From contig DNRP01000040.1 in assembly GCA_003499955.1 (NCBI GenBank), positions 2,144 to 24,401 of the forward strand: DNA of 22,258 nucleotides. Direction: 5' to 3'. The translations under genes and the position numbers were made by a program. The notes below the pieces were generated by a model that saw nothing but the letters and a program-made list of their open reading frames with translations, did not search any database and was not told the origin of the DNA. Shown piece by piece: positions 142 through 20,571 of this stretch. This DNA is from Cyanobacteria bacterium UBA9971 (GTDB lineage Bacteria > Cyanobacteriota > Vampirovibrionia > Gastranaerophilales > UBA9971). Numbering within the stretch: position 1 is the stretch's first letter; the number at the start of each line of letters is the position of its first letter.

Positions 142-172
142 ATTGGTTTCCCGTTGGTCACTCGCAATGACG
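142..172 (-). repeat. CGTCATTGCGAG-type dispersed repeat, intergenic copy
   Basis: On the minus strand this reads CGTCATTGCGAG followed by a short variable part and ends near ACCAAT. The CGTCATTGCGAG head is shared with copies at 4129-4170, 5246-5338 and 7047-7086. It begins eight bases after the stop codon of the transporter gene and ends before the ribosome site of the next gene. It seems to be a half-length (single-arm) copy. Confidence 0.6.
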
Positions 173-3285: not shown

Positions 3286-4035
3286 TTAATTCTGTTTTTC
3301 TTTATAACCCAATGCAATTATTGAAACACCAAAAGGACAACTTCCATTTTGGATAATAAGGCTTTCACTGGACATTATTAATTTTAACAGAGAATTTATC
3401 GGTTTTGGAGGTAAAAATGTATCTTCTTTATCTTTCAAAACGCTGATTTTTGATTTAATAAATCTTACTGCAAAAATTAAAGGAAAAAGCCATGTATTAA
3501 AATAACTACCATATTTTATTGTTATGCCTGCTTTTTTCATTTTAGTTAATAATTCGTCCAAAGTATATCTTCTTTTATGGTTATTTATTTCGTCATGACC
3601 GCTCCACAAAAACTGATACGCAGGAACTGTTATAAGAATATGACCACCCGTTTTTATTTTAGATAAAACATTTTTTAATGAATTTATATCATCATCTACA
3701 TGTTCCAAAACATCAAAAAGAGTTATTAAGTCAAAACTTTCATCAGAAAAAGGAATATTATCAGGTAAATTTCCATTTATTGTATTAAAAGCATAATTTT
3801 GTTGTGAAAGTTCTCTTGCATAAGAATTGCACTCCATACCTATAATATTTTTAGTAAATCGGGATAAAAGTTCGAAATTTCCACCTGTTCCACTTCCAAT
3901 ATCCAAAATTTCCGCTTTTTCCCCGATATTTTTTATATATGTTTTTATAACCGTTTCTATTATTTTAATTCTACTAATATGCCACCAGTTTTCTTTTTGA
4001 TATTTTGCGTCAAAATCATAAAGTGCTTTATCCAT
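3286..4035 (-). CDS. Class I SAM-dependent methyltransferase
   Basis: A 249-residue soluble protein. Motif I is ILDIGSGTGGNF (DxGxGxG at residues 45-51), and an acidic strand and LFDVLEHVDDD follow further on. Later PAYQFLWSGHDEINNHKRRY is a signature common in methyltransferases of surface-polysaccharide loci. It would use S-adenosylmethionine in the cytoplasm, but the acceptor (sugar, lipid or small molecule) cannot be read from the sequence. The start ATG has AGGA eight bases upstream. The gene begins 27 bases after the truncated transketolase C half and precedes a GT87-like gene, so it is probably cotranscribed. Confidence 0.88.
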   Translation of the reverse strand: MDKALYDFDAKYQKENWWHISRIKIIETVIKTYIKNIGEKAEILDIGSGTGGNFELLSRFTKNIIGMECNSYARELSQQNYAFNTINGNLPDNIPFSDESFDLITLFDVLEHVDDDINSLKNVLSKIKTGGHILITVPAYQFLWSGHDEINNHKRRYTLDELLTKMKKAGITIKYGSYFNTWLFPLIFAVRFIKSKISVLKDKEDTFLPPKPINSLLKLIMSSESLIIQNGSCPFGVSIIALGYKEKQN

Positions 4036-4062
4036 TATTTTTTCCTGTTTTTTATTATAATT

Positions 4063-4590
4063 CTAAACTCTTATGTATCCTGTTTTTGTACTTGTTATCC
4101 AACTGTCAAAAAGTTTATCAAAATTTTCAGATTGCCATGTCGGCAACACAGTCGCCTCCTCGCAATGACAGAGGGAGGACTTATAAGGATTATATACAGG
4201 CATGTTTATGAGTTCCATTAATTTTATGTCATCTTCATCACAAATATGAGAATTTCCGAGTGCTTTAAAATAATTATTCACTCCCGTACTTACAAATTTT
4301 ACGTTTAAATCCTGCAAAACAACGTCATTTCTGACTTGTTCTATCGCTCGAAAAGCAAGAAAATTTACTATAGAATAAAAAACGGGAATTAATCCTGTCA
4401 TTGCCATACCTGCTGCTATTCCAACAGAACCCTGTTCCATAATTCCAACGTTATAAAATCTATCCGGAAATTCTTCCTTAAATTTATCAGTAACGCCAAA
4501 TCCCATATCTGATACAAGAAGAATAATTCTTTTATCTTCTCTCGCATAAGGAATTAGTTTATCTATAACAGCACTTCTGTAGTTATTCAT
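4063..4590 (-). CDS. Transketolase-like C half, pyrimidine-binding domain only (truncated, repeat-interrupted)
   Basis: The open frame extends upstream to 4671, but similarity to its paralogue at 18827-19735 begins at MNNYRSAVIDKL, so I place the start at 4590. This overlaps the N-half stop by eight bases (175 residues). The protein has the transketolase pyrimidine domain, with VSDMGFGV and the conserved Glu in GIMEQGSVGIAAG (E52). It stops at TGYIRV, aligning with SPIYLRLGYGS of the paralogue, so the usual C-terminal domain (about 130 residues) is absent. Residues 141-154 (CHCEEATVLPTWQS) are a translated CGTCATTGCGAG-type repeat inserted between NPYK and SENFDKLF. With the N half it would make a thiamine diphosphate dependent ketol transferase. 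The frame is open, so function is possible, but partial decay is equally plausible. Confidence 0.75.
   Translation of the reverse strand: MNNYRSAVIDKLIPYAREDKRIILLVSDMGFGVTDKFKEEFPDRFYNVGIMEQGSVGIAAGMAMTGLIPVFYSIVNFLAFRAIEQVRNDVVLQDLNVKFVSTGVNNYFKALGNSHICDEDDIKLMELINMPVYNPYKSSLCHCEEATVLPTWQSENFDKLFDSWITSTKTGYIRV
4129..4170 (-). repeat. Repeat half-element inserted in frame in the transketolase C half
   Basis: The minus strand reads TGTCATTGCGAGGAGGCG and ends TGGCAATCT, 42 bases or exactly 14 codons. It shares the head of the intergenic copies at 142-172 and 7047-7086. It encodes CHCEEATVLPTWQS. The related transketolase C half elsewhere in the window has no matching segment. Confidence 0.75.
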
Positions 4591-5512
4591 ATCTGTTACC
4601 CATATTAAATTCTTCTTGAGAGGGTGTTCTAAAGTGAAATTTTGGTATATTTTCCATACAGAGAAGTCCATATCCTTTTATAGTTTTTGCAATAATAGCT
4701 TTTGGCTTGTTTTCGGAATTTTTATTTAACTTTAATATTGCCGATTCTATTTCTTCAACATCATGACCATTACAGGAAGCTGTTTCAAAACCAAAAGCAG
4801 ATAATTTTCTTTCAAAATGGTTTTCATCCTTCTTATCAATAAGAATATTTTCAAGAAAATCCATTGCCTGAAGTCCGTTATTATCTATAATCAATATTAA
4901 GTTTGACAGTTTATGTTTTGCTGCAAACTGAATGGCTTCCCACATAGAACCTTCCTGCATTTCTCCATCACCGACAAGACAATAAACCTTATAATCCTTA
5001 TTTTGCAATTTTGCCCCAAAGGCAATACCAACAGCAACAGGTAAACCATGACCAAGAGATCCGCAACTGGTTTCCAGTCCATAATCATGATTAATTTCCA
5101 CACACCCTTTTAAAGAACCGCCGTTATGAAAATTCTGAATTTCGCTATCAGGAATAATTTCGAGGTCATTTAATATTACATAAAGCGAATAACAGCCATG
5201 TCCTTTTGAAAGAATAAATCTATCACGATTTTCCCAGTCGTTCTTGTCATTGAGAGGAGCAGCCGTAGGATGCGACGAAGCAATCCATTTGTTCAATGGT
5301 TTATAGTTTGCTTCGTCACTATGTTTCTCGCATTGACGATTAGGAATGTTCATAATTTTGTAATAAAGTACAGTTAAAACATCAACGCAGGATAATGACG
5401 GGGCAATATGTTCGCCGCCTTTGTTTACAGCAAACTCAACGGTTTTTTTTCTTATTTCATTTGCTTTTGATCTTAAATTTACTTCGCTATTTAAAAGGTT
5501 TCCTGTATCCAT
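4583..5512 (-). CDS. Transketolase-like N half (thiamine diphosphate domain) with in-frame repeat insertion
   Basis: A 309-residue protein, against 279 in the paralogue at 19732-20571. Thiamine-diphosphate features are present: EHIAPSLSC near residue 34, LSKGHG (102-106), SCGSLGHGLPVAVG, and GDGEMQEGSMWEA (181-193) followed by LIIDNNGLQ. Residues about 59-89 (RQCEKHSDEANYKPL onward) are foreign to the family and match the translation of a 93-base palindromic repeat. Without them the protein would read NIPN-NDWENRDRF, as expected for the family. With the adjacent C half it would form a two-subunit transketolase, plausibly supplying a seven-carbon ketose phosphate to the sugar pathway. Its start overlaps the end of the nucleotidyltransferase-kinase gene by 22 bases. 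Confidence 0.85.
   Translation of the reverse strand: MDTGNLLNSEVNLRSKANEIRKKTVEFAVNKGGEHIAPSLSCVDVLTVLYYKIMNIPNRQCEKHSDEANYKPLNKWIASSHPTAAPLNDKNDWENRDRFILSKGHGCYSLYVILNDLEIIPDSEIQNFHNGGSLKGCVEINHDYGLETSCGSLGHGLPVAVGIAFGAKLQNKDYKVYCLVGDGEMQEGSMWEAIQFAAKHKLSNLILIIDNNGLQAMDFLENILIDKKDENHFERKLSAFGFETASCNGHDVEEIESAILKLNKNSENKPKAIIAKTIKGYGLLCMENIPKFHFRTPSQEEFNMGNRYE
5246..5338 (-). repeat. Full palindromic repeat element inserted in frame in the transketolase N half
   Basis: A 93-base dyad. On the minus strand one arm starts CGTCAATGCGAG and runs to GACGAAGCAA. The other arm, read on the plus strand, starts GTCATTGAGAGG and runs to CGACGAAGCAATCC. The two arms flank a short AT-rich centre. The length is 31 codons and the frame stays open through both arms. 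It is a two-arm version of the half copies elsewhere in the window, and the organisation recalls the Rickettsia palindromic elements that persist inside genes. Confidence 0.8.
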
Positions 5513-7026
5513 TTTTTAAGTTCTTCCAATTTTATAGGGATATTACCGACTTTACTTACTGCAATAGAAGCAATTCCTGCTCCAATAACAGAAGCTTCCA
5601 TTAAATTTGCTCCTGCACAAAGTCCCAGAACCAATCCTGAAAGAAGAGAATCGCCTGCGCCCATTACATCAACAGGATTTACGTTTAAAGCATTGAAATG
5701 TTGCGTTTGTAGAAATTTATCCTCGTTTTCTGAAATGTTTTGATAAGAAATAAAACCGTTTTCACCAAGAGTCAAAACAAGGTTTTTAAGATTAAGTTTT
5801 TCAACAAGGGTTGTTCCTATTTTTTCAAGCCCGCTATGCTTATCACCAAGCGCAATTCTTGCTTCTCTTTCTGTCGGAGTGATAAGATCAAAATTATTGA
5901 ATTTTAATATGTCACCTATTTGGCTGCTGCTTTGAGAATCACCAAAAAGCTTGATATTTTTTAATTCTGCTATTTTAGAAATGTTTTTAATAAGATTTGG
6001 AGTGATTACACCGTAAGAAAAGTCGCTTATGACAATTCCGTCAATATCATCAGCAATTAAATTTATATAATCAATGATTTGTTTTTCGATTTTGGAATTT
6101 ATATGATGTTCCTGAAGTCTTGAAACTCTTAGTAATTTTTGGTTTCCGACCATATATCTCATTTTAAAAGTTGTTTGACGTTCATTATCGCAAATCAAAT
6201 TTGCTTTTATGTTTTCCTGTTGAAGCTCTTTTTTAACTATATTAGCGGGTTCATCGTTGCCTATTACGGAAACAAAATAACAATTTGCCCCGAGACTTTT
6301 TATATGTCTTGATACAACCGCTGCCCCTCCTACAAAATCCCTTTTTTCTACTTCTTTTATATTGATCACGGGAGCTTCGCTGCTCATCCCTAATGCATCA
6401 CAGGCAATATATTCATCAACAATCGTATCTCCTATAACAAGAATATTTAAATCTTTAAAAGAATCAATATAATTATTTAGTTTTTCAGGCTGGATTTTTT
6501 GCCTTGCTACAGCTTCTTTAAATTTTTGCAATTTCTTTTGAGAAAGACTTAAAAGGTTATCATTCAACAAATCGTATGTGGAATATTCTACGCGACCAGA
6601 GCTGAAGACTACTTTTCCGTTTAATTTTTCAACCAGATCTATTTCGTCTTTTATAAAATCAGTTTTATCGCTAAATTCTTCGCCTTTTACATAAAAATCC
6701 GGCTGTACGGCTTTTATTACGTCTAAAAAAGAAATATCATTAAAAATAATCACTTTATCGACTTTTTGCAGGGAAGCTACACCTCTTGCCCTGTCGTATT
6801 CATCAAAAAAATTCTTTTTATTCTTCTCCTCAAGGTAATTATAACCCTGAATTGCTACAATTAAGCAATCTCCCTGCTTTTTTGCATATTCTAAAAATCT
6901 TAAATGCCCCGGATGTACGGTATTAAAGTGTCCCTGACAAAGCACAACTTTTTGTTCCGAACTTTTTTGCTCTTTAATATATTCGATAATTTCGTTTATA
7001 TTTAAAATTTTTTCGTTAATTTCCAT
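5491..7026 (-). CDS. Nucleotidyltransferase-PfkB kinase fusion (HldE/RfaE-like, reversed domain order)
   Basis: A 511-residue protein. Residues about 25-150 form a cytidylyltransferase-fold domain with GHFNTVHPGH (HPGH at 38-41) and a VKGEEF motif (113-118) equivalent to the VKGGDY region of HldE. Residues about 193-505 are a PfkB/ribokinase-family kinase with VIGDTIVDEY, SSEAPV, GGAA (233-236), DSQSSSQ, TPTEREAR and VMGAGDS, where D459 is the expected catalytic base. In HldE the kinase comes first; here the order is reversed. It would phosphorylate a sugar phosphate at C1 and, after dephosphorylation, attach a nucleotide. Which sugar and which nucleotide are unknown. It sits between a radical SAM gene and a transketolase pair, near a GmhA-like isomerase, which fits a heptose or heptose-like pathway. 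Confidence 0.85.
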   Translation of the reverse strand: MEINEKILNINEIIEYIKEQKSSEQKVVLCQGHFNTVHPGHLRFLEYAKKQGDCLIVAIQGYNYLEEKNKKNFFDEYDRARGVASLQKVDKVIIFNDISFLDVIKAVQPDFYVKGEEFSDKTDFIKDEIDLVEKLNGKVVFSSGRVEYSTYDLLNDNLLSLSQKKLQKFKEAVARQKIQPEKLNNYIDSFKDLNILVIGDTIVDEYIACDALGMSSEAPVINIKEVEKRDFVGGAAVVSRHIKSLGANCYFVSVIGNDEPANIVKKELQQENIKANLICDNERQTTFKMRYMVGNQKLLRVSRLQEHHINSKIEKQIIDYINLIADDIDGIVISDFSYGVITPNLIKNISKIAELKNIKLFGDSQSSSQIGDILKFNNFDLITPTEREARIALGDKHSGLEKIGTTLVEKLNLKNLVLTLGENGFISYQNISENEDKFLQTQHFNALNVNPVDVMGAGDSLLSGLVLGLCAGANLMEASVIGAGIASIAVSKVGNIPIKLEELKKWIQETF

Positions 7027-7046
7027 TTGTCTTTGCCTTTTGTATT

Positions 7047-7086
7047 GTCATTGCGGCAGCATCGCTGCACCACTAAGTGGCAATCT
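7047..7086 (-). repeat. CGTCATTGCGAG-family repeat, intergenic copy
   Basis: This copy occupies most of the 64-base gap between the radical SAM gene and the nucleotidyltransferase-kinase gene, four bases after the former's stop codon. Read on the plus strand it has GTCATTGCGG, then two small hairpins (GCAGC-ATC-GCTGC and CCAC-TAA-GTGG), then GGCAATCT. The ends match the half-element inside the transketolase C half, but in the opposite orientation relative to transcription. Confidence 0.65.
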
Positions 7087-7090
7087 AATC

Positions 7091-8185
7091 TTATATAAAG
7101 TTGACATGAGGTGATGGGTTTTTTAGTTCCCATAAATACCTGTTTATTTCATCCATTCTGCAATTTATACGACAATTTTCCGCATTCATTGTGGTTTTTA
7201 TGTATTCAAAATTTTCTTTTCTTCTTTCACCTTCCCAGATTTCTTGAAAAGAATTCTCATTAATATTACCATAACAAAATTCGGGATTTTCTAAGAATGA
7301 GCTGCACCCGAAAACATTGCCGTCAGACATTATATATCCCCAGAAAAACGGAACGGCACCGCATTTTTTATATCTTTCAACTTTATTAGTCATTTTCTTC
7401 ATAGTATTTGTCCTGAAAATAACCTTAAAGGTTTCGGTATTATACTTTTCAAGCTCTTTTTCAAGGAACATATAATCAGAATATAAAATATTTTCATATT
7501 TTTTTGTGTTGCTTGATAAATGCTGGGAATAAGGTTTTATAACAAGATAATCAAGTCCGATATCTCTTGAAATTTGTGCAAGTTCTGCTGCTGAATTAGA
7601 ATTTTCCGGCAATAAAAGCATTTGAGCACCTAGAGTAGACCCTTTTCCGATTTCTTTTCTTAAAGATACAGCTTTAGAAAGATTTTCCAGAACTTTATTA
7701 AAATCTTCTTCTTTTGTCCTGTGAATTTCAGAATAAACTTTGGCGTTTCCTGCATTAAGACTTACTTTTATCCATTTGCAGTTTTTAACATATATTTCAA
7801 GAGCTTCTTGTGAAACTATAGCGAAATTAGTGGTCAATGATGTGTCTATTCCTACATTTTCGCAGTGTTCTATAATTTCAGGAAGTTTTTTATAAAGCAG
7901 GGGTTCGCCTTCGCCTGCAAACATTAAGCTTTTAACGCCTAAATCAGCCATTTCTGTTATTCTTTGTTTTAAAATTTCATAAGGAATTTCTCTTTTTTTA
8001 TAACCTATATAGTCTTTTGCACAAAAAACACATCTGTGATTGCAATGTCCGACAGGCGAAATTTCAAGATATATCGGGTAAATGCTTTTTGCTGTATCCC
8101 ATTGTTCATTATCAGCTTGCCATTGAGCCACCCTTTGGGGATGGAATATTAATTTATGGTTATCTATTCTGTATGAATTTGTCAT
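7091..8185 (-). CDS. Radical SAM protein with SPASM-like C-terminal cysteines
   Basis: A 364-residue protein. The 4Fe-4S cluster motif is C48-x3-C52-x2-C55 (CNHRCVFC), after IYPIYLEISPVGH. FAGEGEPLL (89-97) is the glycine-rich SAM contact. The C-terminus has C275, C294, C304, C338 and C342, including MSDGNVFGCSS and GNINENSFQEIW, as expected for a SPASM/twitch auxiliary cluster domain. Radical SAM proteins of this general kind occur in polysaccharide gene sets beside GmhA-like and RfaE-like genes, but I know of no assigned reaction. It would act in the cytoplasm, perhaps on a sugar phosphate or nucleotide sugar. It starts nine bases after the isomerase gene, consistent with one operon. Confidence 0.87.
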   Translation of the reverse strand: MTNSYRIDNHKLIFHPQRVAQWQADNEQWDTAKSIYPIYLEISPVGHCNHRCVFCAKDYIGYKKREIPYEILKQRITEMADLGVKSLMFAGEGEPLLYKKLPEIIEHCENVGIDTSLTTNFAIVSQEALEIYVKNCKWIKVSLNAGNAKVYSEIHRTKEEDFNKVLENLSKAVSLRKEIGKGSTLGAQMLLLPENSNSAAELAQISRDIGLDYLVIKPYSQHLSSNTKKYENILYSDYMFLEKELEKYNTETFKVIFRTNTMKKMTNKVERYKKCGAVPFFWGYIMSDGNVFGCSSFLENPEFCYGNINENSFQEIWEGERRKENFEYIKTTMNAENCRINCRMDEINRYLWELKNPSPHVNFI

Positions 8186-8194
8186 AATACTTGT

Positions 8195-8821
8195 TCAGCT
8201 TTGCAATGCGATATTATTAAGTAATTCAGACAAGTTATATTTATCTTTTCTGGTAAATAAATCTGTTAATAAATGCAGATAATAAGCATGTGAAGACTCT
8301 GCAAAGCTGTAATCATCGGCTTTAACATATAAATTATAATCACCCTTTTTTCTGAGAGAATTTTCAGGATTAAAAGATGTAAAAGTTATTATAGGGCTGT
8401 TTTTTAGATTTTTTCTTACATAATCCGCCGAAATTAAAAGATTTGGGGAAGAACCCGAGCTGCTTATTGCTATTAAGCCGTCTCCATCTTTCATTAGTCT
8501 TTTAAGCATTTCCATATAAGCATTTTCATAAGAATAATCATTACTGAAACAGGTTATAAAAGATCCTTCAATATTAGAAAATGATGCAATATTACCGTTT
8601 TTGGTAAAATCAGTAGAGAAATGAGCCGCCATAGAAGCACTGGCACCATTTCCCAGAAAGAAAAGTTTTTTTTCACTCTTTTTAATTTTTTCAAGTAATT
8701 TTAAAACATTAACAAACCAGTTTTCCCGGCTTATTAAATTTTCACGATCCGAAAATTCGGCGTTTGTAATTACCTGAAGGAAATGGCTCAAATGTTGTTC
8801 TATATTATTTTCTAAGTTCAT
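8195..8821 (-). CDS. SIS-domain phosphosugar isomerase, GmhA-like
   Basis: A 208-residue protein with one SIS domain, a normal length for the GmhA family. FFLGNGASASMAAHF (from residue 54) and AISSSGSSPN (118-127) are the two phosphosugar-binding loops. Aligned from memory with E. coli GmhA, the metal/active-site residues His61, Glu65, Gln172 and His180 correspond to H67, D71, E175 and H183 here: two are unchanged and two are conservative changes. The family converts sedoheptulose 7-phosphate to D-glycero-D-manno-heptose 7-phosphate, and the nearby transketolases and kinase-nucleotidyltransferase support a related step. The substitutions leave room for another substrate. Confidence 0.82.
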   Translation of the reverse strand: MNLENNIEQHLSHFLQVITNAEFSDRENLISRENWFVNVLKLLEKIKKSEKKLFFLGNGASASMAAHFSTDFTKNGNIASFSNIEGSFITCFSNDYSYENAYMEMLKRLMKDGDGLIAISSSGSSPNLLISADYVRKNLKNSPIITFTSFNPENSLRKKGDYNLYVKADDYSFAESSHAYYLHLLTDLFTRKDKYNLSELLNNIALQS

Positions 8822-18826: not shown

Positions 18827-19735
18827 CTATTGTTCCCTCTTTTCAGCCATTTTTATGATACTTGTTTTTATTGATTCTATATCAATTCCAGATTCTTTTC
18901 TATGAAAATTTTGGCTACCGTAAGTTCCGCTGGGATATCCTTTTGCTGTCAATAATTCTAAGCAAAAATTACTACATCCGTTTTCTATTAATTTTGAAAC
19001 CAGATATTCTCCAAATCCTCCTCTTTTAACATGTTCTTCAATACAAATCAGTTTTTTCGTCTTGTTAACCGAGTCAATAAATTCAGAAGGAATTTCTTTA
19101 AAAGGGATTTCTCCTATTGACCATAAATCTGCTTTTCCTGAAAATTGTTCAGCTGCAAGGTAACTATTAATGCCGATTGATCCTATTGTTGCTATTGTAA
19201 TTTCATTTCCTGTTAGCAACTGCCGCCAATCATTAAATTCAGAAATTTTATTATTCAAAGAACCATAACCAAGGCGTAAATAAATTGGGCTGTTATATGA
19301 TATCGCTGTTTTTACGGCTTTTTCAACATCATTATTAATCATAGGGGCTATGCATTTAATATTTAGTAGACTTAAAGCTCCATAATCTTCGATTGCATGG
19401 TGAGTTGCGCCCATAATTCCATATCCGTATCCTCCTCCATTTCCGGTAATTATGACCGGTAAATTATGAAAAGTAATATCATTTCTTATTTGTTCATAGC
19501 CTCTGTAAACTATAAAAGGTGCTATTGAGTATACAAATGGATGAAACCCTTGTTTTGCAAGACCTGCCGCAAGACCTATTATATTTTGTTCAGCAACTCC
19601 TGCATTTATAAATCTATTGCCAAGTACTTCTTTAACTTCTTCAAGAGCGTTAAAGCCAATATCTCCGGTTATAAAAATCAATTTATCATACGATTTAGCA
19701 ATATTTATAATAGATTGTGCAAATTCTTTTCTCAT
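18827..19735 (-). CDS. Transketolase-like C half (pyrimidine plus C-terminal domains)
   Basis: A 302-residue protein of normal length for a split transketolase C subunit. The pyrimidine domain has FITGDIGF, then GVAEQNIIGLAAGLA with the catalytic Glu (E49), and GGYGYGIMGATHHAIED. The C-terminal domain begins after IYLRLGYGS and includes LICIEEHVKRGGFGEYL near the end. It would pair with the N half encoded just upstream, whose stop overlaps its start by four bases (ATGA), so stoichiometric synthesis is likely. As a ketol transferase it could make a sugar phosphate for the pathway. It is the intact counterpart of the shortened gene at 4063-4590. Confidence 0.9.
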   Translation of the reverse strand: MRKEFAQSIINIAKSYDKLIFITGDIGFNALEEVKEVLGNRFINAGVAEQNIIGLAAGLAKQGFHPFVYSIAPFIVYRGYEQIRNDITFHNLPVIITGNGGGYGYGIMGATHHAIEDYGALSLLNIKCIAPMINNDVEKAVKTAISYNSPIYLRLGYGSLNNKISEFNDWRQLLTGNEITIATIGSIGINSYLAAEQFSGKADLWSIGEIPFKEIPSEFIDSVNKTKKLICIEEHVKRGGFGEYLVSKLIENGCSNFCLELLTAKGYPSGTYGSQNFHRKESGIDIESIKTSIIKMAEKREQ

Positions 19736-20571
19736 TTTTTTATATATTCTTCAGGTTTACAATTTTTCACTTCTTCGCAAGCAATTTTATATTGTTCATC
19801 ATTCATGGTCAAATAATGCCAATCTACGGTGTTTTCCATAAAACTGACACCTTTTCCTTTTATAGTATTGCAAACTATGCATTTAGGTTTTTCATTTTTT
19901 TCTTTGTTTAGTTTATCAAAAGCTTTTTCAATCGAATAAAAATTATGTCCATCACATTCAGCTGTATTCCAGCCAAATACATTCCATCTTTCCGATAGGT
20001 TTTCCATATTCATTACTTCTTTAGTAAAACCAAAAGCTTGTATATTATTTTTATCAACAATAATAGTAAGATTATTTAAGTTATTATGTGCTGCAAATGC
20101 AGCTGCTTCCCAAACAGAACCTTCATTACATTCTCCGTCTGAAACTAAACAATAGATATTTTGTTTTGTATTATTGATTTTTGCCCCGAGAGCCAGTCCT
20201 GCTGCCAGAGAAGGCCCATGTCCCAGGCTTCCTGTAGCAAACGGTATTCCTTCAATCCCTTTTGCAGGTGGATGTGCACTAAAAAATGTACCTTCTTTAT
20301 AAAAAGTCGCTAATTCTTTTTCAGAAACTAAACCTTTAAAATTTAAAACAGAATACAAGGCAGCTGCAGCATGTCCTTTTGAGAGAATAAAATAATCATT
20401 TTCTGCAGATTTATAAAGATTAAAATAAACCAGCAATTCAATACAAGATAAAGATGAACCAATATGACCGGCATTTGCTTTTTTATATAAATCAAGTATA
20501 TTTAATCTAATTTCTTTGGAAATATCAAATAAATCAGAAATATTATTTATTTGTGTTTTTAAATTATACAC
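19732..20571 (-). CDS. Transketolase-like N half (thiamine diphosphate domain)
   Basis: A 279-residue protein. GHIGSSLSC (35-43), LSKGHAAAA, ATGSLGHGPSLAAG, and CLVSDGECNEGSVWEA (141-156) followed by IIVDKNNIQ form the cofactor site. The usual GDG of the Mg/thiamine-diphosphate motif is SDG here (S144), a mild change. It has no extra segment between the helical N-terminus and FILSKGH, in contrast to the copy at 4583-5512. The start is GTG without a clear Shine-Dalgarno; no better start exists. It is the first gene after a strong-looking promoter, so it may begin its own transcript. Confidence 0.88.
   Translation of the reverse strand: MYNLKTQINNISDLFDISKEIRLNILDLYKKANAGHIGSSLSCIELLVYFNLYKSAENDYFILSKGHAAAALYSVLNFKGLVSEKELATFYKEGTFFSAHPPAKGIEGIPFATGSLGHGPSLAAGLALGAKINNTKQNIYCLVSDGECNEGSVWEAAAFAAHNNLNNLTIIVDKNNIQAFGFTKEVMNMENLSERWNVFGWNTAECDGHNFYSIEKAFDKLNKEKNEKPKCIVCNTIKGKGVSFMENTVDWHYLTMNDEQYKIACEEVKNCKPEEYIKK

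Follow-up and report, generated by a model that had tools for sequence, protein, structure and literature searches.

Small palindromic repeats that are read as part of a protein are best known from Rickettsia. The Delihas review (PMC2229807) mentions 19 reading frames that are interrupted, and an insert-bearing guanylate kinase that is active. CGTC REPs have been published from Proteobacteria, Chlorobi, Bacteroidetes, Spirochaetes and Thermotogae (Di Nocera, De Gregorio, Rocco, 2013, PMC3733652). That paper reports R. conorii RPE-4 and RPE-6 as CGTC-4 and CGTC-1 repeats, calls the B. malayi Wolbachia elements unrelated to the CGTC-4 repeats of other Wolbachia, and already notes different REPs at about the same recB site in two Xanthomonas species.

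Here we describe a heavy load of protein-coding palindromes in a distant lineage, represented by Cyanobacteria bacterium UBA9971. Melainabacteria belong with the Cyanobacteria. The window, meaning the whole stretch of DNA analyzed (22,258 nucleotides), lies on contig 148 of a 2.24 Mb assembly with 188 contigs that is 83% complete. We conclude that a 93-bp segment of a transketolase N-subunit (TktN) gene in this Melainabacteria-lineage genome is very probably an inserted copy of a small, non-autonomous palindromic element, which would be translated with the enzyme. The phenomenon is real and genome-wide, and its chief interest is the repeated occupation of the same loops.

A repeat palindrome lies in frame in a split-chain transketolase gene

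The features of the locus, with that of the paralogue, are as follows.

4583..5512, minus strand: split-chain transketolase N subunit (TktN), 309 aa, with the insert at residues 60-90 (Pfam Transketolase_N from residue 90; AF2)
5246..5338, minus strand: in-frame palindromic dimer, 92 nt GTC...GAC plus one base, equal to 31 codons
5245..5287, plus strand: first half-element, TGTCATTGAGAGGAGC..hairpin..GACGAAGCAATCCA (L078:7388-7430; a row of the halves alignment A1)
5288..5304: spacer between the halves of the TktN dimer
5305..5337, minus strand: second half-element, more degenerate, GTCAATGCGAG...GACGAAGCAAACTA, by reading of the sequence
4063..4590, minus strand: transketolase pyrimidine-binding (C) subunit (TktC), 175 aa from MNNYRS; listed ORF start 4671 (Pfam Transket_pyr)
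4128..4170, minus strand: half-element in the C subunit, CHCEEATVLPTWQSE, net +14 codons relative to the same-genus genome G001
7046..7087, plus strand: half-element-like repeat between ORFs 5491-7026 and 7091-8185 (L078:9189-9230)
19732..20571, minus strand: paralogous transketolase N subunit, an insert-free internal control (Pfam, alignment)

In the TktN dimer, the tags of the two halves face outward and their tails face inward. On the plus strand, 5246-5337 reads GTCATTGAGAGG...TCGCATTGAC (92 nt); once position 5338 is added, which supplies the C of the opposite CGTC end, the length is 93 nt, or 31 stop-free codons (RQCEKHSDEANYKPLNKWIASSHPTAAPLND) flanked by AAT (N) and AAG (K). An initial annotation had described a complete palindrome with two arms, in frame, exactly 31 codons long and free of stops. 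ORF 4583-5512 (minus strand) bears out the codon count and the open frame, and confirms an in-frame repeat palindrome in a transketolase gene. The two arms and the 93 bases also stand. "Complete" does not: the dyad is real but imperfect, with arms that pair imperfectly in a single-stranded DNA fold of 5240-5345 (−14.5 kcal/mol vs. a shuffle mean of −7.6; z = −3.15; 2/200 shuffles as good). The junction is in frame as described, with a downstream flank of KNDWENRDRF, not NDWENRDRF. A 97%-identical protein from another source, P0001, carries the identical insert, which argues against an assembly artefact.

All 31 residues are missing from the 16 other sequences of alignment A3, including the orthologue in G001 and the paralogue at 19732-20571, which had rightly been described as lacking the segment. 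Among solved structures, the insert-free TktN orthologue has its best relative in 6YAK, which is the N-terminal component of a split-chain transketolase. The point of insertion maps to the 6YAK stretch KEMRIDPANPKWQDRDRF and lies, as annotated, ahead of the LSKGH motif. In an AF2 model built from a 17-sequence alignment (mean pLDDT 78.7, pTM 0.82), residues 60-86 had pLDDT <50 and no secondary structure, between helices 43-53 and 90-95. The insert is a predicted disordered loop, and the predicted disorder suggests that it is exposed at the surface.

The TktC half-element lies in frame near the C terminus (YNPYKSSLCHCEEATVLPTWQSENFDKLF vs. YDPYKTPETDFDKLF in the orthologue without it). Among the C termini of the 21 best TktC homologues, P0241 is the UBA9971 protein itself, a similar insert is present in P0242 and P0243, and the other 18 lack one. 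The insert peptide is near-identical in UBA9971 (SSLCHCEEATVLPTWQSE) and P0242 (SSLCHCEEATVSPTWQSE), in proteins that are 83% identical. Truncation of TktC by its half-element was rejected, because homologues are short too (159-190 aa, mostly 161-166, among the best 120 of 1244). An RNA-family origin was likewise rejected: the single Rfam hit in 3900-5700 (E 0.71) fell far under the cut-off. The initial annotation had overlooked the TktC half-element, as well as the genome-wide scale of the family and the repeated loop occupation in relatives.

The split transketolase genes (4063-5512) cluster with 5491-7026, an HldE-like kinase/nucleotidyltransferase, and 8195-8821, a SIS-domain, GmhA-like protein, the HldE-like and GmhA-like names coming from reading the ORFs rather than from a family search. 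As read from these sequences, the cluster suggests a supply of sedoheptulose 7-phosphate for heptose synthesis.

The palindrome belongs to an abundant repeat family

A blastn search of the UBA9971 genome (E ≤ 0.001) returned at least 24 matches including the query copy (40 of 89 candidates scored). The core GCGAAGCAATCC, with at most one mismatch, occurred at 110 places vs. 3 for a reversed control, and the pattern GTCATTGCGA-N8-38-GGCAATC at 161 places vs. 0 for its control. Covariance model R1 matched at least 149 half-elements (150 of 969 candidates scored). The repeat thus recurs in its own genome. Among the relatives searched, the same 31 residues were not found in repeat-free lineages, and the extra residues that do occur at the site look palindrome-derived from their peptides. 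Within the window, GTCATTGCGAG with at most two mismatches was found 7 times vs. 1.94 expected (1/100 shuffles had as many). Intergenic remnants of the family lie at 161-171 (minus strand) and 7046-7087 (plus strand).

The pattern was present in 20 of 60 genomes (UBA9971 and 59 relatives) and its control in none. UBA9971 had the highest count (161), compared with 94 in G012, 68 in G041, 67 in G057 and 12 in G001. The covariance model matched 15 of 21 genomes (UBA9971 and 20 relatives; up to 150 candidates scored per genome). The one Rickettsiales genome searched, G069, had no pattern hits.

Half-elements follow the plan [C/T]GTC-ATTGC-...-variable hairpin-...-GCAAT-C(C/T)A, with an inner end that lacks sharp definition, and dimers are two inverted halves. 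We aligned 49 of 61 selected halves (91 in total) in A1. Halves of a 41-nt class read [C/T]GTCATTGCGAGGA, a variable hairpin, then GACG(T/C/A)(G/A)GCAATC(C/T)A, and their stem has 5 constant pairs, an internal loop, 5 variable pairs and a 3-nt loop. The outer 5 pairs never vary and so are uninformative on covariation. In the inner stem of 29 sequences of this class, two-sided changes occurred at 5/5 pairs, a number that is itself no excess over shuffles (5 vs. 4.8; 386/500 as high). The cells with two-sided changes were more numerous than in shuffles (50 vs. 15.1), and the covariation score was 0.466 vs. a shuffle mean of 0.159 (0/500 shuffles as high; slid controls ≤0.142).

The base preceding GTC was T in 77, C in 12 and another base in 2 of 91 distinct halves, tag counts that are conditioned on a search pattern demanding GTCATTGCGA with at most one mismatch. 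Pairs A5-T38 and T6-A37 were present in 29/29 halves of the 41-nt class, where the pattern favored an AT start. Tails among the 91 halves were TCCA (43), TCTA (35) or other (13). Related palindromes with GTCATTCTGAG, GTCATTCCGA and GTCATCCTGA ends were also present among the matches listed. Three loci (L048, L092 and L097, on C35, C180 and C30) have similar segments around the element and a differing hairpin module, a short GCGAAGC in two and a long GGGTACCC...AAGGGGGA in the third, as if swapped.

Mobilization by an IS200/RAYT-type transposase was considered and rejected. No Y1_Tnp match was found in the UBA9971 assembly (83% complete) or in G001 (80%), and G002 has a broken Y1_Tnp fragment. 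Across the 60 genomes, 18 had a match, 17 of them above the cut-off, and presence of Y1 did not track repeat counts: Y1 is missing from G057 with its 67 pattern hits, the best Y1 match comes from G047, where the pattern has 0 hits, and G012, G018 and G041 have both.

Copies occur inside conserved genes

We surveyed genic copies in 60 stretches (321,078 non-overlapping bases) that contain 87 of 100 listed core sites (110 total); the other 13 listed sites fall outside. In these stretches, 166 halves grouped into 111 elements, comprising 55 dimers with tags outward and 56 singles. A search based on the ends gave 75 pairs, 74 of them ≥50 nt. The initial annotation had proposed counting copies inside ORFs against those between them; done in part, for these stretches, this placed 13 of the 74 dimers in conserved genes, where "genic" refers to a hand-made list that includes Wzy, whose Pfam match flanks the element on a single side, and C132, included through a G001 orthologue whose site is occupied.

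By NCBIfam/Pfam names, the element-bearing genes include MnmE, PriA, PyrK, PyrD, MqnE, RsmD, QueE, RNase HII, an M16 peptidase, a menaquinone-type UbiD decarboxylase, two glycosyltransferases (GTa and GTb), a nitrogenase-component-like protein, MqnA (VitK2_biosynth) and others, part of which hold half-elements rather than dimers. The MqnA, MqnE and UbiD-type decarboxylase names, all of the futalosine menaquinone route and all with palindromic inserts, fall on L083 (C155) and L095 (C8).

Ten genes could be set against an insert-free orthologue (TktN, TktC, MnmE, M16, MqnE, RnhB, GTb, UbiD, PyrK and PyrD). Every length difference was in whole codons, and frames were open across the inserts. Relative to the UBA9971 protein, orthologues were shorter by 30 aa in TktN, 14 in TktC, 14, 50 and 23 in MnmE, 39 in M16, 33 in MqnE, 35 in RnhB, 28 and 15 in GTb, 34 in PyrK (2 relatives) and 10 in PyrD (3 relatives). 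UbiD was shorter by 30 aa in the 3 relatives aligned, and its flanking matches were 0-6 nt apart in 5/5 searched. GTa differed by only 17 residues from G001, whose loop is partly filled. For PriA, MqnA, RsmD and QueE the evidence is a family match that spans the element, and the PrmA ORF runs into a masked stretch. An orthologue hunt with 24 queries in a first sample of G001 found 4 empty or changed sites besides MnmE and the transketolases; for most other queries, the gene lay outside the sampled stretches. The MnmE gene (L069:1258-2880 on C110, 541 aa) is interrupted at three sites by palindromes with three or more types of end, which add 87 residues relative to the G002 orthologue.

Dimer lengths differed between genic and other copies. 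After one 18-nt pairing was removed (75 to 74), 11 of the 13 genic dimers had a length of 2 mod 3 and 2 of 0 mod 3 (the M16 and MqnE dimers fall outside the 2-mod-3 class), compared with 26, 21 and 14 of the 61 others at 2, 0 and 1 mod 3. The excess (11/13 vs. 26/61, Fisher p = 0.012; binomial vs. one third, p = 0.0002) is flattered by these p-values, because the class was spotted on the same data. Such an excess would arise if the net change exceeded the element by 1 mod 3, and GTb, with an 83-nt element and a net 84 nt, matches this exactly. Elsewhere, the net insert and the element measured 90 and 92 nt in TktN, 90 and 77 in UbiD, 99 and 84 in MqnE, 117 and 81 in M16, and 102 and 119 in PyrK. 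Since the net length is often unlike that of the element, later indels are assumed, and a target-site duplication is undefinable. In the 61 other dimers, 26% of frames were open vs. 19% in base-shuffled copies, a modest excess.

The same loops are occupied differently in relatives

We compared the TktN loop in 32 rows (UBA9971, G001 and the 30 best homologues, from a list of the best 120 of 847). The loop had 5-9 residues in 25/32 and 17-42 in 7/32. Among the long loops, those of UBA9971 and P0001 hold the same insert. The peptide is dimer-like but not the same in P0002, palindrome-like and again different in P0005, half-like in P0003 and P0004, and shorter in P0006, with P0002-P0006 judged palindrome-derived from their peptides alone. 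G001, with a 7-residue loop, clusters with P0005 (support 89). The tree requires at least 5 changes, with many weak branches and with gain and loss not told apart.

MnmE was compared in 36 rows, with 4 of 30 database rows chosen for length (from the best 120 of 2266). Long forms of loops 1, 2 and 3 were seen in 3, 17 and 8 rows, requiring at least 2, 10 and 4 changes, respectively. These change counts overstate the palindrome events, since no palindrome could be recognized in some of the long loops (loop 2 of P0137, P0139 and P0144; loop 3 of P0131 and P0172). In loop 3, UBA9971 has CHCEQSEAI...IASSQAPRND vs. CHSEGFSPKNLSN...ILRFAQDD in P0124, which clusters with it (support 90). In loop 2, UBA9971 has CHPEEARSADV, P0122 CHSELDSESIQR, P0123 CHCEEHSDAAIQ and P0182 CHSEFISESQN...LKQVQHD. 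At the site of a CGTC-type dimer in the UBA9971 NifE-like gene, G001 (C16, L159:9722-9850) has a palindrome of another family, GTCATTCCGAACTTG...CAGCATGAC, with an open frame throughout (CHSELDSESIQ...LKQVQHD).

The different palindromes, half-like peptides or empty states in the same MnmE and TktN loops of relatives imply that inserts were gained, lost or exchanged more than once at set positions. It is conceivable, although we hold it to be somewhat doubtful, that certain loops of conserved proteins are standing addresses for palindromes in this lineage, emptied, half-emptied or refilled with a palindrome of another family between close species. If so, palindromes would be swapped at these positions or cut out of them precisely, perhaps via their shared GTCAT...ATGAC ends, and would be more than rare neutral insertions that decay.

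Origin and fate of the inserts

In the mechanism we propose, a palindromic dimer inserts into the TktN gene and the enzyme would gain an extra disordered loop. Selection would retain only insertions into loops that tolerate a disordered peptide, and over time the insert would erode, be lost, or give way to another palindrome in the same loop. Persistence in genes would reflect an element that is open in several frames, a net length that is a multiple of three, and loop-selective retention. The pattern suggests that the element spreads as a selfish or near-neutral repeat, and it may also bring a benefit.

That the element-bearing genes are decaying pseudogenes, with frames that are open by accident or because the insertions are recent, might be read from the repeat-rich genome and from the short TktC ORF (202 aa as listed vs. 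302 aa in the paralogue). We consider it very unlikely: TktC homologues are short too, all ten compared genes keep open frames, including MnmE with its three sites, genic dimers prefer one length class, and inserts of relatives at the same sites are also in frame. Less probable still is removal of the insert from the RNA or protein, as by an intron or intein, so that it would be missing from the mature enzyme. Although differing families at one site would then do no harm, Rfam gave no match above the cut-off in 3900-5700, and tolerance extends to half-elements as well as dimers, from several families. Whole-codon differences and the lack of stops, expected only under translation, point to codons that are translated.

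Adoption of the extra loops for a function (regulation, binding or mRNA structure) has in its favor the nearly constant TktC insert peptide in UBA9971 and P0242, and the inserts in three proteins with menaquinone names, MqnA, MqnE and the UbiD-type decarboxylase. It is nonetheless improbable, if slightly less so than decay, given that relatives differ at a single site in the sequence, family and length of the insert, down to none at all, that G001 has neither transketolase insert, and that the TktN insert is structureless in the AF2 model. We thus favor a tolerated palindromic element that would be translated with its host protein. The range of states at shared sites, from empty through half-like to full or swapped, would then form a natural series on how selfish repeats invade proteins, persist there and are lost again, and on how proteins acquire disordered loops. 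They also call for caution in annotation, as peptides like CHCERSEAI...IASSQAPRND within proteins may be repeat-derived.

Comparison with known systems

REPINs with RAYT transposases (see PMC3116915 and PMC2817692) share inverted REP pairs and many dispersed copies with the UBA9971 family; they differ in their Y1 transposase, which was not found in the incomplete UBA9971 assembly or in G001. The Wolbachia palindromic elements and enterobacterial MITE fusions treated in part of PMC2229807 are also small palindromes fused in frame to genes, with other sequences and other hosts.

The CGTC REPs, as described in PMC3733652, share a [C/T]GTC tag, a stem that starts with AT, inverted dimers with a spacer and intragenic copies. 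They are also described with a CCA-type tail, which about half of the UBA9971 halves have, and with an apparent lack of a dedicated transposase, to which the missing Y1_Tnp match in the UBA9971 assembly may correspond. In UBA9971, we found the terminal CGTC/TGTC tag, the AT-initial stem and inverted dimers (55/111 elements). The published stem, 8-9 bp long and closed by a loop of 4-5 nt, differs by description from the 5 + 5 pairs, internal loop and 3-nt loop found here in the 41-nt class, and formal membership is partial.

The host also differs, being of the Melainabacteria lineage rather than of the five phyla listed in PMC3733652. A literature search for the exact text of GTCATTGCGAG found no paper on palindromic inserts by title, a search for Melainabacteria and palindromic found Mendelian-randomization titles only among the matches listed, and the main text of the RepRanger paper (PMC12306157) has 0 occurrences of 'Melainabacteri' and 'intragenic'. 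Because those five phyla exclude Cyanobacteria and these searches, which took in few subscription papers, found none, the host lineage seems to be new for CGTC-type repeats, although it may be in print elsewhere.

The initial annotation had likened the insert to the selfish palindromic elements of Rickettsia in an apparently different organism, and this likeness is supported: in both, palindromes are read in frame within conserved proteins and are absent in orthologues. UBA9971 is of a distant lineage, and the likeness is one of described features. It may exceed analogy, through the link of RPE-4 and RPE-6 to CGTC REPs. The UBA9971 family therefore resembles a known kind of repeat, with the CGTC REPs and the Rickettsia RPEs as its nearest described counterparts.
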